From: Deltaproteobacteria bacterium
GTDB lineage: Bacteria > Desulfobacterota > Binatia > UBA9968
Direction: 5' to 3'
Assembly: GCA_030688735.1 (NCBI GenBank)
Contig: JAUYJC010000211.1
Coordinates: 1-44,494, forward strand
DNA length: 44,494 bases
Shown here piece by piece: positions 1,380 through 14,311 of the stretch. The stretch's first letter is position 1, and each line of letters begins with the position of its first letter. The notes under the pieces are model-generated. The model was not told the origin of the DNA. It did not search any database and saw only the letters and a program-made list of their open reading frames with translations. Position numbers and translations under genes: made by a program.

Positions 1380-1681
1380 CACCCAACACTCCGACCGATA
1401 TTGATTCTTTCCGCCGATAAACTCATTCAAGCTCGCGTCGTGGATACAATAACACGCGAGCCCGCCATGAGTTAACCCCGATCGTACGCGAAACACGCGG
1501 GGTCACCGATTCAACCGGCCATCGCCAAGAAAATCGGCGCTTCGCCAAATCCCGTGGACGAGGGTACACGGCAAGCCTTTTATGAGCTAGTAAATAAATC
1601 GCGCCAAGCACAGACGCAGAAGTAGTCATCGCAGCGCGCGCCCGGGTATACCGGACCGACGGATCCGATTCCGGGGCTGGA
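1380..1681. other. Intergenic stretch, no gene seen
   Basis: About 300 bases separate the monooxygenase start from the metallophosphoesterase stop. The track ORF at 1423-1629 (arginine-rich, no motifs) looks like chance coding. I see no RNA gene, strong hairpin or repeat here. It must carry the promoter of the monooxygenase gene, but no convincing -35/-10 pair stands out. Confidence 0.4.
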
Positions 1682-2707
1682 TCAATCCGCGCTCAGGATT
1701 TCAATCAGGACCGCTTCCGGCTCGGCGCCCCAGCGCCATGGAATCATGATGCTGCCGAGGCCGCGCGATACCACGAGCTGGGAAGAGCGAAAGGCATAGA
1801 CCCCTTCGTCCAGGCAAAAGCGGCTCTGGCGGATGAGCGGGCCGCCGTTGGCAAAGCGAATCTGACCGCCGTGGGTGTGGCCCGAGAGCGTCAGCGGCAC
1901 GCCGCACGCTTCGGCTTCGTAGAAATGATCGGGGTTGTGCGCGAGCAGAAGATGCGGCGCGCCGTGGTTCGACGTTAACCCCGACCAATCCGGTTTGCCC
2001 ATAATGAGATCGTCGATGCCGCCGAGCACGAAGCTGGCGCCGCCGTGGGCGATTTTTACCGACTCATTTTTTAGCGTCTTTATATTCACCGACAGCAAGC
2101 CTTGGCGTATCTCTTCCGGGTCTCCGCCGAAGTAGTCGTGATTGCCGAAACAAAACCAGGCGCCGAGCGGCGCTGCCGACAGCGGCGCTAGCGTACTGAG
2201 AACCTGCTTCGCCTCCCTGACGTGGCCGCTGACGAGATCGCCGCCCACGGCCACCAGGTCGGGCCGCAGGTTCATTAAAGAATCAACGATCGCGGACAAC
2301 AGTTCGGGTCTGAGAAAAATGCCGGCATGGATATCTGAGATATAAAGCACTCGCAGCGGCGCAACTCCCTTCGGCCAGCCGACGGGTGACAACGTGCTCT
2401 CGGCCAGACCGAAGCGTCTTTCCAGAAGCCAGCTGTAGGGGTTCCAGAGCTTGGAAAGGTGTGGATACAAGAAACGCGATATGAGGATATCCAAGTTGCG
2501 TTCGATTACTTTTACCAGTCCTTTGTTGGGATTAAGCCACCGGTGTTCCTTGCCCGTCACGACTCGTGGCGGCGCGAGTCGGCGCCTTTTTGGAATTACG
2601 GGTTGGATTTTGCCGGCTGAGACCAGCCCCGGTACGCTAATAACGTCCAATCGGACAGCTGTGTTTATCTCGCTTTCCCGTATTCGGTCGGGATCATAAG
2701 GGGTCAT
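1682..2707 (-). CDS. Metallophosphoesterase (YaeI/YkuE-like)
   Basis: A calcineurin-like phosphoesterase of 341 residues. The five family blocks are present in order in the C-terminal two thirds: SDIHAG, GGDLVSG, GNHDYFGG, LLLAHNPD and LSGHTHGGQ. Together they supply the Asp, His and Asn ligands of the dinuclear metal site. Relatives such as E. coli YaeI and B. subtilis YkuE are membrane-associated phosphodiesterases. This protein instead has about 110 extra N-terminal residues without an obvious signal peptide, including an aromatic-rich stretch (FLYPHLSKLWNPYSWLL) that might bind membrane. The start at 2707 has no good Shine-Dalgarno sequence, so an internal start is possible. The substrate is unknown. 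Confidence 0.8.
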   Translation of the reverse strand: MTPYDPDRIRESEINTAVRLDVISVPGLVSAGKIQPVIPKRRRLAPPRVVTGKEHRWLNPNKGLVKVIERNLDILISRFLYPHLSKLWNPYSWLLERRFGLAESTLSPVGWPKGVAPLRVLYISDIHAGIFLRPELLSAIVDSLMNLRPDLVAVGGDLVSGHVREAKQVLSTLAPLSAAPLGAWFCFGNHDYFGGDPEEIRQGLLSVNIKTLKNESVKIAHGGASFVLGGIDDLIMGKPDWSGLTSNHGAPHLLLAHNPDHFYEAEACGVPLTLSGHTHGGQIRFANGGPLIRQSRFCLDEGVYAFRSSQLVVSRGLGSIMIPWRWGAEPEAVLIEILSAD

Positions 2708-2819
2708 AAGATAATATTTTGCCCCATCGGCTCCGGCGCGGCAATAGCGAACTCACCGGCCGGTAGCGCGCACGGTGGCAAGACGGCCAATGCAAAAGTA
2801 ATTGGGGCAATGATGCCGC

Positions 2820-3826
2820 TCAGCGCCCGGGGGGCATTCCCAGCTCTTGCTGGGCGCGGCGCAAGTAGCTCATGTCGAGGTATTTTTCCGGCGCGGGATA
2901 GGGGCGGCTTTTGAACAACCGGTCGCCCATCAAATCGATGAGCCGCTGAAACCCTTCGCGATTCACCGAGCCGTCGCGGCTGATGATGCCCTGAGCGAGA
3001 TATTCCTCGACGGTGGGGCGGGTGTACTTAAGCTGAATTCCGGTGCGCTTGGTCACCAGGTCCGCGGCTTCTTCCTTATGGGTGTGCGCCCACTGCATCG
3101 CCCGCACCATCGCTTTCAAATAGCGCACGGTGAGCTGGCTGTTGGTCTCGGCCCAGCGGCCGTCGACGATCAGGCTGTGAAATTGCAAGTTCGGTATGTA
3201 ATCTTGCAAGCGCGCGATTTCGGGAAAACCAAGCTCCCGCGACCGAGGCAGATCGCCGCCCAGGATCATCGTCGCCGAGGTGTTGCAGCCTTTGGGCTCG
3301 CCAGCCGCTGCACGGTGGGGCCGTTCTGGATGATTGTGTAATCGCGATTGAGCTCAAGACCCTGGGTTTTGAGCATCTCACGCAAAAATATCGTGCTGCC
3401 GGAAACCAAACTCACCACGCCGAGGGTCGTGCCATTAAGCTCTTTGATCGTTTTGTACTTCGGACATCCGACCAACGTGTAGGCGGCGATGGGCACGGTG
3501 CCGCCGATGATTTTTAACGCGGCGCCGCGCTCGACCGCGTTGATCGCCGCGGAGGGATCGACGATGGCGACATGCACCTGGCCGGCGATGAGCGCCTGGA
3601 CCAGCGTATCGGTCGAGCCGATCAAGACGACGTCGCCCTGAATGCCTTCTTGCGCGAAGAAACCTTTGTCCGTGGCGGCGTAGTTCGGCAGTTGCTCGAC
3701 TGTGCGCGAGACGTTGCCGATGATCACCCTGTCCGCAGCATGGGCCGACGAAGGGCACACGAGGGCCAAGATGCCGGTCAACAACATTCCGGTTAATTTC
3801 AACGGCGCATTAAGTTTCATGATCAT
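2820..3826 (-). pseudogene. ABC-type substrate-binding protein (NMT1/SsuA-like), frameshifted
   Basis: Two track ORFs (3266-3826 and 2820-3269) are halves of one periplasmic binding protein of about 335 residues. The first half has a signal peptide ending SSAHA and the family opening (NYAATDKGFFAQEGI, LVQALIAGQVHVAIVD). The second begins in another frame with SATMILGGDLPRSRELGF and continues to a normal C terminus. The frames join smoothly if one G is restored in the run AAAGGC near 3290, so a single-base deletion explains the break. This may be true gene decay or a sequencing error. The likely start is the ATG at 3820, six bases after GGGAGG. It lies nine bases downstream of the deacetylase stop, so the two were probably co-transcribed. 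Such proteins often bind small aromatic or sulfonate-like ligands; no permease or ATPase is in view. Confidence 0.75.
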
Positions 3827-3835
3827 CCTCCCGAA

Positions 3836-4705
3836 TTACGGTTTCTGATAGTAGTTGGCGTAGTAGTAGTCGGCGATCTCCGCGCCGGTGGTTTTCCAGA
3901 CGCCGTCGTGGGCGCAGATGTAGTCGAGGGCTTGATCTAGATACTTTATGCGGAAGGCCAGGCCGATGACGAACGGATGGAGCGGCAGGGTCATCACCCG
4001 CCCTTGCGTCGCCCCCTCGGCGTACAAGGTATCGAACTGGTCGCACACCATTTGCAGCCAGTCTTTCGGCGTGTGGCCGCCTTGAAAGATGACGCGAATG
4101 TCGTTGAGCCCTTGCTGATAGGGAATCGCGATCATCCGCCCCGACTTGACGCGCATGGCGCAGGGCTGATCGTCGAATCCCCAGTCGCAGACGTAATCGA
4201 ACCCCTCGGCGGCGAGGTGGTCCAGCGTGTGCGGGCTTTCGTCGCCGCCGCCGGGACCGAGCCAGCCGCGCGGCACCTTGCCGGTCGCCGCCGCGATGGT
4301 GTCTTTGATCTGCTTGACCACGGCCCGCTCCTGGTCCGTGGGATATTGATTCATCCGAATGTTGTTGGTCACGCCGTGCCCGAGCCACTCCCAGTTGCGT
4401 TGGTTGCCTTCCTCGATGATCGCCGGATGGTGCGCGCATACGTCGGAGTTAAGCAGCACCGTGGCGCGTATGCCATGTTTGTCCAGCACGTCCATCATGC
4501 GAAAGACACCGATGCGTGAGCCGTAATCGCGCAGCGCGTAACCCGTGACATCCGGCAACTGAGAGCCGGGCGCGCCGGGGATCACTTTGTCGATGTGAAA
4601 GAATTCAATATTGGGCGCCACCATCAAGGCGATGCGCGCGTTATTCGGCCACTTGAACGATTTGCGCCGGATGATCGGCGTGTAATCATAACGATCGGTC
4701 TGCAT
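3836..4705 (-). CDS. Polysaccharide deacetylase family protein (PuuE/allantoinase-like NodB fold)
   Basis: A protein of 289 residues with the NodB-homology pattern: an N-terminal motif where the family has its Asp (VAPNIEFFHID), a helix with LDKHGIRATVLLNSDVC, the HP pair in the second motif, GHGVTNN, and a later WLGPGGG segment. It belongs to the branch that includes PuuE-type allantoinases rather than chitin deacetylases. The usual first Asp appears as Asn-Ile-Glu, so metal use is uncertain. I chose the ATG at 4705 because AGGAG lies just upstream and the MQTDRYDY opening is family-like; the 91-residue upstream extension in the track looks non-coding. The gene is followed after nine bases by the broken binding-protein gene, suggesting uptake plus hydrolysis of one small compound. 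Confidence 0.75.
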   Translation of the reverse strand: MQTDRYDYTPIIRRKSFKWPNNARIALMVAPNIEFFHIDKVIPGAPGSQLPDVTGYALRDYGSRIGVFRMMDVLDKHGIRATVLLNSDVCAHHPAIIEEGNQRNWEWLGHGVTNNIRMNQYPTDQERAVVKQIKDTIAAATGKVPRGWLGPGGGDESPHTLDHLAAEGFDYVCDWGFDDQPCAMRVKSGRMIAIPYQQGLNDIRVIFQGGHTPKDWLQMVCDQFDTLYAEGATQGRVMTLPLHPFVIGLAFRIKYLDQALDYICAHDGVWKTTGAEIADYYYANYYQKP

Positions 4706-4821
4706 CTCGGCGCTCCTGTCGTTTGGCTTTAGGTAATCCGACACTATGACAGTCGCGATCGCGGCGTCAAGGTTCGCCTTGGCGCCGCAGAATAGCGGGT
4801 GAAAGGTGGGGTTCCAGACGG

Positions 4822-4893
4822 CGATAACGCTCGCGCTCACCCGCGACCGTTCGGCGACAGCGTGCGGTCGCCGGGTGCAGCGCGTTGTTATGC
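4822..4893 (-). other. attC-like integron recombination site, copy 1
   Basis: A 72-base imperfect palindrome. On the minus strand it opens with GCATAAC and closes with GTTATCG. Inside, the arms CGCGCT-G-CACCC-G-GCGACCG and CGGTCGC-GGGTG-AGCGCG pair over about 17 bp and leave two extra bases, both in the left arm. A small unpaired AA/AGC spacer lies next to the core boxes, and the apical loop is about 15 bases. This is the attC plan (R''-L''-loop-L'-R') with extrahelical bases in L''. The asymmetry sets the orientation as minus, the same as three of the four genes beside it. The right core deviates from GTTRRRY at its end. No integrase gene is visible. Confidence 0.6.
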
Positions 4894-5063
4894 AGCGGGC
4901 CAAGGAATCGCGGCACTCCGGCGATCGGCTGAGGATAGCACTTCGGACTCTTCGTGGAATCGTGAGGGCAAAGACCATACAAGGAATCCGGCAGGCGACC
5001 GCCAGGCTTGCGGTAGGGAATCAGAACTCCTATCCTCAATCAGTGAACGGAAGCGGAACAGCC

Positions 5064-5801
5064 ATGCGCGCCTATCTCGTGCGAGTCGCAGTGGACCAGA
5101 CGTTCGGAGGGTGGAACTCACCCGTGGACCCGGAGACCAACGAGTTCGTGTACGTCCCCATCCCCGAGCAAAGGGCCATGCGGGCCGCGCTCGCGACACC
5201 GTACAGTCTGGTCCAGCCCGCCTTGGCTCGGTTCACGGACACACATCCCGCAGCGCGGTCTCGGTCCGTTCAACTCCCGTCGGATCTAACCTCGGCAAAC
5301 ATGCACCTCGACCCGGATTTTGAACACCTCACCTACGGTGACAATGGCGTGCGGCGGGGCAAGGGGCTGGCCGGTCTCGGCCGCCGCGATATCGTCGTCT
5401 TCTACAGCGGCCTCAGGCCGGTGGCTGCTTGCCAGCACCGTCTCGTCTACGCGCTCGTCGGTCTGTACCGGGTGCGCGAGGTGGTGCGCCTCGAGTCGGT
5501 CGCCGCGCCTCGGTGGTCCGAAAACGCCCATACGCGCTGCATCAAGCACGTGGGGAGCGACGTCATCGTGCGGGCCGAGCGCGGTTCCAGCGGCCGGCTA
5601 CGGCGGTGCATTCCGATCGGCGAGTTTCGCGACGGAGCCTACCGGCTGACTCACAGGATCCTGGAGGCTTGGGGAGGACTCTCCTGCCGCGACGGCTACC
5701 TTCAGCGAAGCGCCGTCCCACCCAGCCTCCTCGACCCGCGGCGATTCATCAATTGGTTCGAACGGCAGGGCGCGGAGCTGGTCAACGTGAACAACCTTTG
5801 A
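5064..5801 (+). CDS. Nmad3-like hypothetical protein (putative nucleotide-modification associated domain)
   Basis: A cytosolic protein of 245 residues with no signal or membrane segment. It opens with MRAYLVRVAVDQTFGGWNSP, followed by FVYVPIPE, HLDPDFEHLTYGD and DIVVFYSGLRP. This order (GG-SP near the start, PIPE, HLDPD, then a GD-x-FFxGxR-type strand) is what I associate with the Nmad3 family, predicted from genome context to act in DNA base modification systems. The assignment is from memory of the family pattern, not a search. I start at ATG 5064, preceded by GGAAGCGGAA; the 86-residue upstream extension overlaps the attC-like site and looks non-coding. The last 20 bases overlap the convergent gene at 5782-6276. 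Confidence 0.5.
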   Translation: MRAYLVRVAVDQTFGGWNSPVDPETNEFVYVPIPEQRAMRAALATPYSLVQPALARFTDTHPAARSRSVQLPSDLTSANMHLDPDFEHLTYGDNGVRRGKGLAGLGRRDIVVFYSGLRPVAACQHRLVYALVGLYRVREVVRLESVAAPRWSENAHTRCIKHVGSDVIVRAERGSSGRLRRCIPIGEFRDGAYRLTHRILEAWGGLSCRDGYLQRSAVPPSLLDPRRFINWFERQGAELVNVNNL

Positions 5802-6276
5802 TCGCCTTCGCAGACGGAGTCCGGGGCACGCACTTCTTCGAAGTTGTCACGCGGCCAGCACCACCGGCGGAAGATGGTGGAGCGTCCTTCGCCAGGGCGA
5901 GGATGTTCCCTACTTCTCCCACTTCTCCTCGGTCGAGGCTGTTCATGACTTTGCGCACGTTCTTCGAGTACATCCTGTTGGCGAGCTTCGGGGCCAGTTC
6001 AGGGAAACTCGGCCCATCGCACTCGAACAAGAGGAAATGGTCAAAGGTGACGATCAGCCCGGGCTTGCCGGCCTCTGCCCTCTTGTGCGGCCCGATACCG
6101 ATCCAGTTCACCTTGCGGGCCAGCCCGTGCGACTCGGGTTCGGCGCTGATGCCACCCACGCCAATGACCGCCTCGAAACCCCACGTTCGGACTGAGCGCA
6201 TGCAGTCGTGAATGCCGAACCGCCCCTTTTTATCCGGATCGCCTGTGTGGGTTCGCTTGTAGATGAGCGTGCGCAT
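5782..6276 (-). CDS. Conserved hypothetical protein in cassette-like island
   Basis: An unrecognised soluble protein of 164 residues. It opens with MRTLIYKRTHTGDPD, then FGIHDCMRSVR, AVIGVGGIS, WIGIGPHKR and LIVTFDHFLLFECDG. Regularly spaced hydrophobic strands with Gly turns suggest an alpha/beta fold, with a Lys/Ala-rich, poorly structured tail. There is no catalytic signature I can name. The first half (GDPD, HDCM, GVGG, GIGPHK) carries polar and Gly motifs strong enough to suggest a real family. It is convergent with, and overlaps, the Nmad3-like gene by 20 bases. Its start lies 90 bases downstream of the second attC-like site in the same orientation. The final 20 residues are the part that overlaps and may be less constrained. 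Confidence 0.6.
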   Translation of the reverse strand: MRTLIYKRTHTGDPDKKGRFGIHDCMRSVRTWGFEAVIGVGGISAEPESHGLARKVNWIGIGPHKRAEAGKPGLIVTFDHFLLFECDGPSFPELAPKLANRMYSKNVRKVMNSLDRGEVGEVGNILALAKDAPPSSAGGAGRVTTSKKCVPRTPSAKAIKGCSR

Positions 6277-6366
6277 GACCTGGCCCCCTTTAGCCTCACC
6301 GAAAAGACCGCCGCCGGGATCGCGGCGAGCAAGATGCCGTGCCCTCGTCCATAGCTTTCAGCACCT

Positions 6367-6438
6367 GCATAACGCGCGCAGTGAGCAGCCGCGGCGAGCG
6401 GATGCGAGCCAACGGGCTACTCCATTGCGAAGTTAGAC
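6367..6438 (-). other. attC-like integron recombination site, copy 2
   Basis: A 72-base imperfect palindrome. On the minus strand it begins with GTCTAAC (a perfect RYYYAAC box), whose TAA is also the stop codon of the 6433-6981 gene, and it ends with GTTATGC. The arms pair as CGCA/TGCG and GAGTAGCC/GGCTGCTC (one G-T wobble). The linker is one base longer in the left arm, and a TT/CGC spacer loop lies next to the cores. Its right core GTTATGC is the exact reverse complement of the left core GCATAAC of copy 1. That is the relationship expected for the two ends of one excisable cassette. No integrase gene lies nearby. Confidence 0.6.
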
Positions 6439-6981
6439 GTTTGGCACATCGCCCCACACCTGCTGCTCGCTCAGCGGAATGACCTCGACGTCAGGAAATC
6501 GCTCAAGGCGAAGCGGCTTGCAGTCCTCCCCGGGGCAGTAAAAGAACACGTACTTGTGCGTCGCGTCGGTTTCCGCAACCTTCGCCACGTCCTTGACGAG
6601 TTTACGGTTGTTCGTGCGATGGACCGCGGCGAAGACCTCGGCTGCCACACTCTGAGATGCTGATTCGAGGTCGCTCCCAGCGGAGGTGCCGAGATTGAGG
6701 CTGATAGGAGCGGAGCCGGGATGGCGGATGAGGATCTGCTCGGCGGCGGCGAGGGATACCAGATAGGTGAAGGTCTGGTTTACTTGCTCGATCAGGTTGA
6801 GACGCCGATTTTCGATAGGGTGATACCCGAGTTCATGAAACTTCATGCGGACGAAAGCTTCGATCGGTGCTGTTGAACCGGCAAGGTGGGCTATGGCCTT
6901 CGCGGCGTTGGTCGTGGCGGCCGCAATGGTCTTTCGCAGTTGCTCGATCTGCCCGCGATCGTGGATGGTGTGAGATGGCAT
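6433..6981 (-). CDS. Hypothetical protein, possible restriction-endonuclease-like fold
   Basis: A soluble protein of 182 residues, not confidently recognised. The N-terminal half is helical. The second half has a pattern like a PD-(D/E)XK core: a strand ending in an acidic residue (GSDLES), then VAAEVFAAVHRTNNRKLVKDVAKV, then THKYVFFYCPG and a final strand with VEVIPL. In such folds an acidic residue is followed by an E-x-K/Q strand; here E-V-F replaces it, so activity is doubtful and the fold call is inference only. The start at 6981 has GGAGA upstream. The gene lies 21 bases after the 7003-7491 gene in the same direction. Its TAA stop lies inside the attC-like core GTCTAAC, as is common in integron cassettes. 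Confidence 0.55.
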   Translation of the reverse strand: MPSHTIHDRGQIEQLRKTIAAATTNAAKAIAHLAGSTAPIEAFVRMKFHELGYHPIENRRLNLIEQVNQTFTYLVSLAAAEQILIRHPGSAPISLNLGTSAGSDLESASQSVAAEVFAAVHRTNNRKLVKDVAKVAETDATHKYVFFYCPGEDCKPLRLERFPDVEVIPLSEQQVWGDVPNV

Positions 6982-7002
6982 TAAGGTCTCCAGACGTCTG
7001 AA

Positions 7003-7491
7003 TTAAGCCGAGTCGCGAGCGGCTTCGGCTTGAATGAATAGTTGGCCCGATACCTTCTTGATCTGTGATGGCCATGCCCCCGGGCAGTTCATGCCCTTAA
7101 AGTAGACGCGACCGTTGGAGCCTATCGACGAGACAATAAACCTCTGACGGGGATCAGTAGCAATGCCGTCAATTTCAAAGTCCTCTAGCAAAGCAACCTC
7201 ATCTCCCGGCTTTAGATTCAAAGCCTGAAGGGCATGTCGGTTGTCTTGCGATAACTTGTCTCCGATCCGCGCGCTAGCAACCCTAATAGTGTCCTTTGAA
7301 ACTTTAATGCCAATCTCTTCCGCAAACTTCCTCTGACGAGCAGTGGATCTCTTGGGTGGGAGTTGGCCTATCGCTGTCGCAACGGCATCATGAATTCGAG
7401 CAGCTGCTACGTCATGAGTATCATCTGATACGTCGATGCCAAGTTTTGCTGCGATATTCTTTTGGGCGCTTGAGGAGCGAGATTTCCGCAC
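7003..7491 (-). CDS. Hypothetical protein with two tandem N-terminal helical repeats
   Basis: A basic soluble protein of 162 residues starting with GTG at 7491, with GGAGA seven bases upstream. The N-terminal half holds two copies of a roughly 35-residue unit: NIAAKLGIDVSDDTHDVAAARI and KFAEEIGIKVSKDTIRVASARI. The pattern Q-x3-A-x2-(L/I)-G-I-x-V-S-x-D-T resembles small helical DNA- or protein-binding modules seen in phage and mobile-element proteins. The C-terminal half is beta-rich (LKPGDEVALLEDFEIDGIA, RQRFIVSSIGSNGRVYFKG), suggestive of an SH3-like or KOW-like barrel. It is the first gene of a two-gene unit with 6433-6981. The start lies only 19 bases after the core box GTTAGCC (minus strand, 7511-7517), as expected for the first gene of a cassette. 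Function unknown. Confidence 0.6.
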   Translation of the reverse strand: MRKSRSSSAQKNIAAKLGIDVSDDTHDVAAARIHDAVATAIGQLPPKRSTARQRKFAEEIGIKVSKDTIRVASARIGDKLSQDNRHALQALNLKPGDEVALLEDFEIDGIATDPRQRFIVSSIGSNGRVYFKGMNCPGAWPSQIKKVSGQLFIQAEAARDSA

Positions 7492-7819
7492 GACAATTCT
7501 CCGTGTGACGGGCTAACGACCGAGTTGACCGGGGTTCCGGGGACATAATACTAATTTTCAGGAAGCCCCTTCGGCCGAGGTCCTCGCTTTCCTAAGCTGA
7601 GCTGCCGTCCCGTCGGCATATGCGCTACGATCGCTGTCGCTGCTGAAGATGGGGTTGATCGTACGCCCCTCTGGGTTACATGATTTGGATAATCAGGCAC
7701 CACGAGTCTGGAAATCCGAGCCATGGACGAAGCGTATTAGATTGCCTGCGAAGCCGTCAAGAAGAATTTGGTAGTGTGTCCCTGGTATTCCACCATCCCC
7801 GAAGGAGACACTTACGCCC

Positions 7820-7851
7820 AAAAAAAACGGGCTCCGATGTTCTCGGAGCCC
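7820..7851 (-). terminator. Intrinsic terminator reading leftward
   Basis: On the minus strand, GGGCTCCGA pairs perfectly with TCGGAGCCC across a five-base loop, followed by G and a run of seven to eight T. It would end a transcript coming from higher coordinates, from the stretch 7852-8400 where no proper gene is recognised. It would also insulate the cassette-like genes starting at 7491. Confidence 0.85.
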
Positions 7852-8023
7852 ACCTTCGGTGCACAACTGATTTTTGACCACTCCGCTGTCTTTCGGCTAA
7901 CCAGCTTTCCCATGCTGCGCGCGACTCGTTTCGAGTCCGCTTGTGTTTAGCCCCGTCATTTTTTCGCCGCAGCGATTTTCCTGTGCTCAGGATTGGAGTC
8001 GGGGCGTAACAACCAGCAATTCC

Positions 8024-8092
8024 CTACCAAGCTGCTCCGCCTGCGGACAGGGAGTGTGTTTTTAACTGGTCCGGTGGAGTGTCACCACCCAT
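8024..8092 (-). CDS. Possible 22-residue micro-ORF
   Basis: An ATG at 8092 is preceded eight bases upstream by a perfect AGGAGG. The ORF encodes MGGDTPPDQLKTHSLSAGGA plus Ala-Trp and ends with TAG. It is too short for the track. The strong ribosome-binding site is the only support; the peptide has no recognised family. It lies about 170 bases upstream of the minus-strand terminator, so it could be a leader peptide, a peptide gene or a chance match. A second micro-ORF (7897-7959) follows with a weaker ribosome site. Confidence 0.2.
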   Translation of the reverse strand: MGGDTPPDQLKTHSLSAGGAAW

Positions 8093-8428
8093 CAATTGCA
8101 CCTCCTGCGCGCAAAAACGAGCAATGGCCGTGCCAGTTGATCGGGTCGCGATTTTACTAAAACTTTTTCCACCGGCATGAAAACTTCCGGACAATTCTGT
8201 TGCAATTTCTAAGAACGCACGCCAAAAAATTCTCGATCTTCAGAACAAGCGGGGCCGCACACCGACTTCTTTTGTGCTTTGATTAATAGCGTGTTGAAGA
8301 ACTTTTTATTCCTAAAAGCCAAGTGGCGATCAGGTTCTAGATGCGGGCAACCAAATTAGGCGATTCTTTTCAACGCCTCGTTCAGCCAGTTCTTGAAACG
8401 ACTCGATAAAGGCAAGACCGGAATTCCC

Positions 8429-14265: not shown

Positions 14266-14311
14266 TTTTCCCAGGCGCTCCAATGATTGAACACTGGAGC
14301 ACCTGGGAAAA
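14266..14311. terminator. Large inverted repeat between convergent genes, possible bidirectional terminator
   Basis: TTTTCCCAGG-C-GCTCCA and TGGAGC-A-CCTGGGAAAA pair around a 12-base loop, with one mismatch in 17 positions. It lies between the stops of the plus-strand alkaline phosphatase and the minus-strand monoheme cytochrome. The A/T tracts are ordered T...A rather than A...T, so it is not a textbook intrinsic terminator. A dispersed palindromic element is the alternative. Confidence 0.4.

Follow-up and report, generated by a model that had tools for sequence, protein, structure and literature searches.

The DNA analysed here (the window) is a contig of 44,494 nucleotides, C205 of the genome bin G000 (6.76 Mb in 634 contigs; completeness 90, contamination 5.4), and it contains an array of integron gene cassettes that spans positions 7516 to 4828 of the minus strand (~2.7 kb). 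The array comprises three cassettes, each ending in an attC site, and the three sites lie within 2.2 kb (Table 1). It occupies an intergenic gap that has a conserved non-coding block, with a terminator, on one side and, on the other, the promoter of a gene for an allantoinase-like deacetylase; the promoter-like site (TTGACG...CATAGT) is at 4770-4743. The closest named relatives of the deacetylase gene come from metagenome-assembled genomes (MAGs) that bear the label Deltaproteobacteria or Candidatus Binatia; the best match has 94% identity (L010; JACPFE010000337), and the host is therefore referred to as Binatota-type. The original prediction, made from the letters of the window, described two 72-base palindromes with the plan of an attC site on either side of a cassette-sized unit. 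Both are real sites with the geometry of class 1 attC (attC2 and attC3); the count of two was wrong, a third site (attC1; GGCCAACTATTCATTCAAGCCGAAGCCGCTCGCGACTCGGCTTAATTCAGACGTCT) between the open reading frames (ORFs) of 162 and 182 amino acids having been missed.

The covariance check proposed for the two palindromes was made with a model (CM R1) built from 14 aligned attC sites with a hand-set structure, which were drawn from class 1 plasmid integrons and one cyanobacterial plasmid integron, and none from this genome. With filters off, the covariance model (CM) has three matches in the window, both palindromes among them, and all on the minus strand; the next best score in the 44 kb is 9.3 bits. 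In 18 loci of related genomes (158 kb) there was no match up to E = 10. Among 59 genomes of the phylum, 28 had none at E 0.05 and others had up to 23 matches, uneven counts being the pattern expected of a specific model and a patchily distributed element.

Read in the minus orientation, attC2 (6438 to 6367; GTCTAACTTCGCAATGGAG...GCGCGTTATGC) and attC3 (4893 to 4822; GCATAACAACGCGCTGCACCCGG...GAGCGTTATCG) have a 7-nt R'' box, a 5-nt spacer, three base pairs, and an extrahelical base at position 16 (5' arm). Further inward comes a second bulge; on the 3' side are a spacer of 6 nt and the R' box. This is the canonical attC plan, in which the extrahelical bases and unpaired spacers determine the orientation of a site; the same numbers were measured in class 1 attC sites on annotated plasmid arrays. 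The boxes of attC3 are R'' GCATAAC and R' G/TTATCG (the slash marks the crossover, at 4828/4827). Those of attC2 are R'' GTCTAAC, inside which falls the TAA stop of the 182-aa ORF, and R' G/TTATGC (crossover 6373/6372), one position off the consensus GTTRRRY (the R'' consensus is RYYYAAC). As had been claimed, the R' of attC2, GTTATGC, is the exact reverse complement of the R'' of attC3 (7/7 positions); R'' of attC1 (GGCCAAC) and the start of cassette 1 (GTTAGCC) agree at 6/7. At the chromosomal edge of the array, where degeneracy is expected, attC3 has a degenerate outer R' (GTTATCG), the outer bases of which would be those of the chromosomal target.

It had also been argued that chance would rarely give both the stems and the core match, and simulation bears this out. 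The window was put through 2000 dinucleotide shuffles; a search grammar found a site as good as attC3 in 0.85% of them, and a same-strand pair with at least the weaker score, no more than 3 kb apart and with a 7/7 core match, in 2/2000 (0.1%). Most class 1 sites score 48-63 with this grammar, a range that includes attC3. The grammar was drafted after aadA2 and the present sites had been viewed, which makes the shuffle test slightly circular; the CM, trained on other sites, is the independent test. A permissive arm-alignment scan, with dozens of matches per 20 kb, was dropped for the stricter grammar and the CM. Folding of both strands as DNA, likewise proposed earlier, gave a bottom strand (window plus) more stable than the top at both 72-base sites (-26.6 versus -24.9 and -15.9 versus -12.5 kcal/mol). 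It upheld attC3 as a strong palindrome (z = -4.2 for the bottom strand against shuffles); the weak result for attC2 is weighed below.

The closest relative, L010, aligns to 1639-4797 and 7807-8301 of the window, and 161 bp lie between these segments in L010. On this alignment the array block is an insertion relative to L010. A search of 197 other sampled genomes of the phylum found none of the three minus-strand cassette ORFs (162, 182 and 164 amino acids). A search with TIGR02249, a model that cross-matches other tyrosine recombinases of the genome, detected no integron integrase on the window contig, so the recommended search of the contig for intI and further attC sites gave the third attC and no intI. 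A full-length IntI (355-360 amino acids; 457 bits against the TIGR02249 cut-off of 265) is encoded in the same bin on another contig, C484; hence intI and attI do not stand beside the array as in a complete integron. Two or more nearby attC sites with no adjacent intI, the arrangement found here, define a CALIN, i.e., an attC cluster lacking an integrase (IntegronFinder 2.0; PMC9024848). The CM matches, the third attC, the matching cores, the foreign genes, the relative without the block and the lack of an integrase on the contig together leave us with little doubt that the locus is a three-cassette CALIN without adjacent integrase in a Binatota-type MAG, in agreement with the original prediction of an integron cassette array or of attC sites clustered without an integrase. 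CALINs are a known sort of element; what is new is the detail of lineage and cargo. CALINs remote from a retained intI are known in Xanthomonas (PMC12444791), and the present one resembles them in that intI is elsewhere in the genome. It differs in its Binatota-type host, and no paper on integrons in Binatota was found in the literature searched.

Table 1. Features of the array, in window coordinates (a slash marks a crossover).
Feature	Position	Strand	Details
attC1, aadA/fosE-type	6992..7047	-	CM 28.2 bits, E 1.1e-4
attC2	6367..6438	-	CM 28.5 bits, E 9.6e-5
attC3, last site of array	4822..4893	-	CM 36.6 bits, E 1e-6 (CM span 4821-4893); grammar score 50.5
Cassette 1	6995..7516	-	start G(7517)/TTAGCC; 162-aa ORF 7003-7491; ends in attC1
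Cassette 2	6373..6994	-	182-aa ORF 6433-6981; ends in attC2
Cassette 3	4828..6372	-	start TTATGC; p164 ORF and convergent Nmad3 gene; ends in attC3; cores GTTATGC/GCATAAC 7/7
p164, 164-aa protein	5782..6276	- (cassette orientation)	no Pfam family
Nmad3 gene (PF18754)	5064..5801	+ (against cassette orientation)	E 8.6e-22, 78.4 bits, Pfam gathering cut-off 27
Stretch absent from closest relative	4798..7806		blastn to L010; 161 bp there vs ~3 kb

In the proposed mechanism, the bottom strand of an attC site (window plus) would fold, as single-stranded DNA, into a hairpin, and the IntI tyrosine recombinase would cut between G and TT of R', which would lead to excision or insertion of a cassette; the presumed activity of the array would consist of these steps. 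Most likely, a chromosomal site other than attI received the cassettes in trans, or the array is the remnant of one that lost its intI. CALIN cassettes are movable in trans (PMC12444791, PMC9668308), and the IntI encoded on the other contig of the bin is a candidate for such an insertion. The route may resemble the insertion of cassettes at attG (Loot et al. 2024, cited by PMC12444791). The likeness lies in an intergenic non-attI site and a GTT at both ends of the array, and the difference in the empty target, which could not be rebuilt (see below). The empty site in sister strains is predicted to read ...GGTCG/TTATCGCC....

Several observations count against a CALIN inserted at this position. 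Cassette 3 is unusual in having two convergent genes. By energy, attC2 forms a modest hairpin (z -1.3 for the bottom strand, 0.0 for the top), and its call depends on the model and the context, the folding energy being weak by itself. The R' of attC1 is broken, its GTT having decayed to GTC (GTCT) with loss of the crossover triplet; as a result, the two cores of cassette 2 do not match, and cassettes 1 and 2 can probably no longer be separated. The exact empty site could not be rebuilt, since the joined flanks matched L010 no better than controls (random 70-mers), and homology with the L010 flanks breaks off ~30 bp before the array is reached on the attC3 side and ~290 bp before it on the cassette 1 side.

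The unexceptional fold of attC2 and the ~2 grammar matches of its score per 44 kb shuffle would suit chance palindromes, i.e., terminators or other hairpins that resemble attC. We give this explanation practically no weight, as three CM matches on one strand stand against it, with nothing near them in the window or in the 158 kb of related DNA, as do the core matches and the 0.1% joint chance of the pair; the near-identity of attC1 to the fosE attC (see below) refutes it in practice. A genomic island or prophage remnant that incidentally carries attC sites would agree with the foreign genes, with a relative of p164 in one viral contig and with a weak match of Nmad3 to a PHROG. However, the block ends almost at the R' box of attC3, it is made up of cassette-sized units only, and the contig has no TIGR02249 match, so that we regard such an origin as very improbable. 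It is unlikely, if less far-fetched, that the array is part of a complete integron, having once stood beside the intI of the bin and been relocated or split off by assembly. Draft assemblies are known to inflate CALIN counts (PMC9024848), the intI contig is only 3.4 kb long and ends soon after intI, and other clusters of attC sites are likewise found close to the ends of contigs. The array of the window, in contrast, lies inside a 44 kb contig, and both of its flanks align to L010, where they are ~160 bp apart; a missing intI would not fit between them, barring a chimeric contig. The original prediction would also have been refuted if the palindromes had proved to be dispersed non-cassette repeats, and they did not. 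The other attC sites of the genome differ in sequence and are not copies of a single dispersed repeat; most stand two or three together, separated by ORFs. A CALIN remains the preferred reading.

The attC1 site shares 90.7% identity over 54 nt, and the same bulges, with the attC of the fosE cassette of clinical class 1 integrons. A site on plasmid pHRM2a of Desulforapulum autotrophicum, itself an attC array according to the CM, shows the same identity to attC1 (90.7% over 54 nt). fosE is among the cassettes whose attC sites have been assigned to Xanthomonadales-type sources (PMC8352920). Compared with the fosE/aadA-type cassettes of class 1 integrons, cassette 1 has another gene (the 162-aa ORF, of no family), and its R' has decayed to GTCT where the relatives of attC1 have GTTAGGC or GTTATGT.

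PADLOC gave no match for any cassette ORF. A relative of the 182-aa protein adjoins a GmrSD-type gene on a Sulfitobacter plasmid. In cassette 3, the 3' ends of the Nmad3 gene and the p164 ORF overlap. Relatives of Nmad3 (33-49% identity) are encoded in three other genomes of the family. p164 has the conserved motifs LIYKRTHxGDP, CM and VIGxGG; an AlphaFold prediction for p164 with two sequences had a mean pLDDT of 46 and was not used. On Cupriavidus pHG1, an Nmad3 gene has a relative of p164 (44% identity) as its neighbour, and the two overlap. Another genome of the family (G021:C114; L094) has a single frame of 426 codons at 1335-2612 that encodes Nmad3 followed by p164 (50% identity). This fusion is flanked by attC-like sites at 1329-1406 and 2628-2686. 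Their cores are an exact match (GTTCGGC/GCCGAAC), and the upstream core pair matches likewise (GTTATGC/GCATAAC); the last of these attC-like sites is weak when taken alone (12.8 bits). At 2092-3423 of G013:C154 (L096), Nmad3 is fused to Nmad2, which occupies the place of p164 in L094. Because of the adjacency in pHG1 and the fusion within an attC-bounded unit, these sequences suggest that p164 and Nmad3 are functionally linked and move together as a cassette.

The Nmad3 gene is above the Pfam cut-off and in this is like the known Nmad2/Nmad3 domains (PF18753, PF18754). It differs from the systems with these domains in its partner, p164, for which Pfam has no match; the partner in G013 is Nmad2. 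Judging from the domain name, the cargo may act in nucleotide modification or in defence; the validated and predicted defence candidates of PMC13092281 include systems with an NMAD domain, which need not be Nmad3. Thus, we tentatively speculate that Nmad3 and p164 form a two-part nucleotide-modification module, possibly anti-phage, which may move as an integron cassette between Binatota-type genomes either as two genes or fused into a single protein, within a lineage that apparently has widespread integrons, although the literature searched does not describe them. This proposal is somewhat more likely to fail than to hold.

The IntI encoded on C484 shares 60-80% identity over aligned segments with the IntI of other genomes of the family, and the gene therefore plausibly belongs to the lineage, on this comparison, rather than being a binning error. 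On the same strand, ~90 bp upstream of intI, is a lexA gene (TIGR00498, 210 bits; lexA-intI locus at 1141-2935 of L009 = G000:C484), which is preceded by a CTGAAATTAGTTTCAG palindrome. The shared strand, the spacing and the palindrome suggest that lexA and intI are expressed from one promoter and are SOS-coupled; the linkage was looked for at the other IntI loci of the family and was not seen. Just after intI, at 3113-3271 of L009, there is a long near-perfect palindrome that ends in GTTAGGC. It was rejected as an attC site (~3150-3270), having no bulge and no CM match, and could be an atypical attC or an attI-side element.

Of 25 genomes of the family searched, G000 included, nine encode an IntI above the cut-off, and 22/24 have attC matches at E 0.05. 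In the bin itself, nine contigs have 11 attC matches in all at E < 0.03, the window accounting for two of these matches; with filters off, six of the other contigs hold two or three attC sites each. In G015, G062 and G063, many attC matches are spread over numerous contigs or loci per genome, as singles and small groups, and this spread could be natural dispersed cassette insertion.

The non-coding block next to the array (7807-8301) is ~85% conserved within the genus and has a strong terminator at its end. It has a weak, sub-threshold match to the small RNA BjrC68 (21 bits; cut-off 39), and a search of Rfam returned nothing at the gathering threshold. Elsewhere in the window, an intergenic 20-nt inverted repeat with a 6-nt loop (14266-14311) is terminator-like.

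The array adds a poorly known and mostly uncultured lineage to the carriers of integron cassettes and integrases. That such a genome contains an attC of the type known from clinical resistance cassettes is relevant to how cassettes pass between phyla. The recurring Nmad3-p164 pair, fused in a second genome and present in attC-bounded units in two genera, provides a cargo that can be tested.
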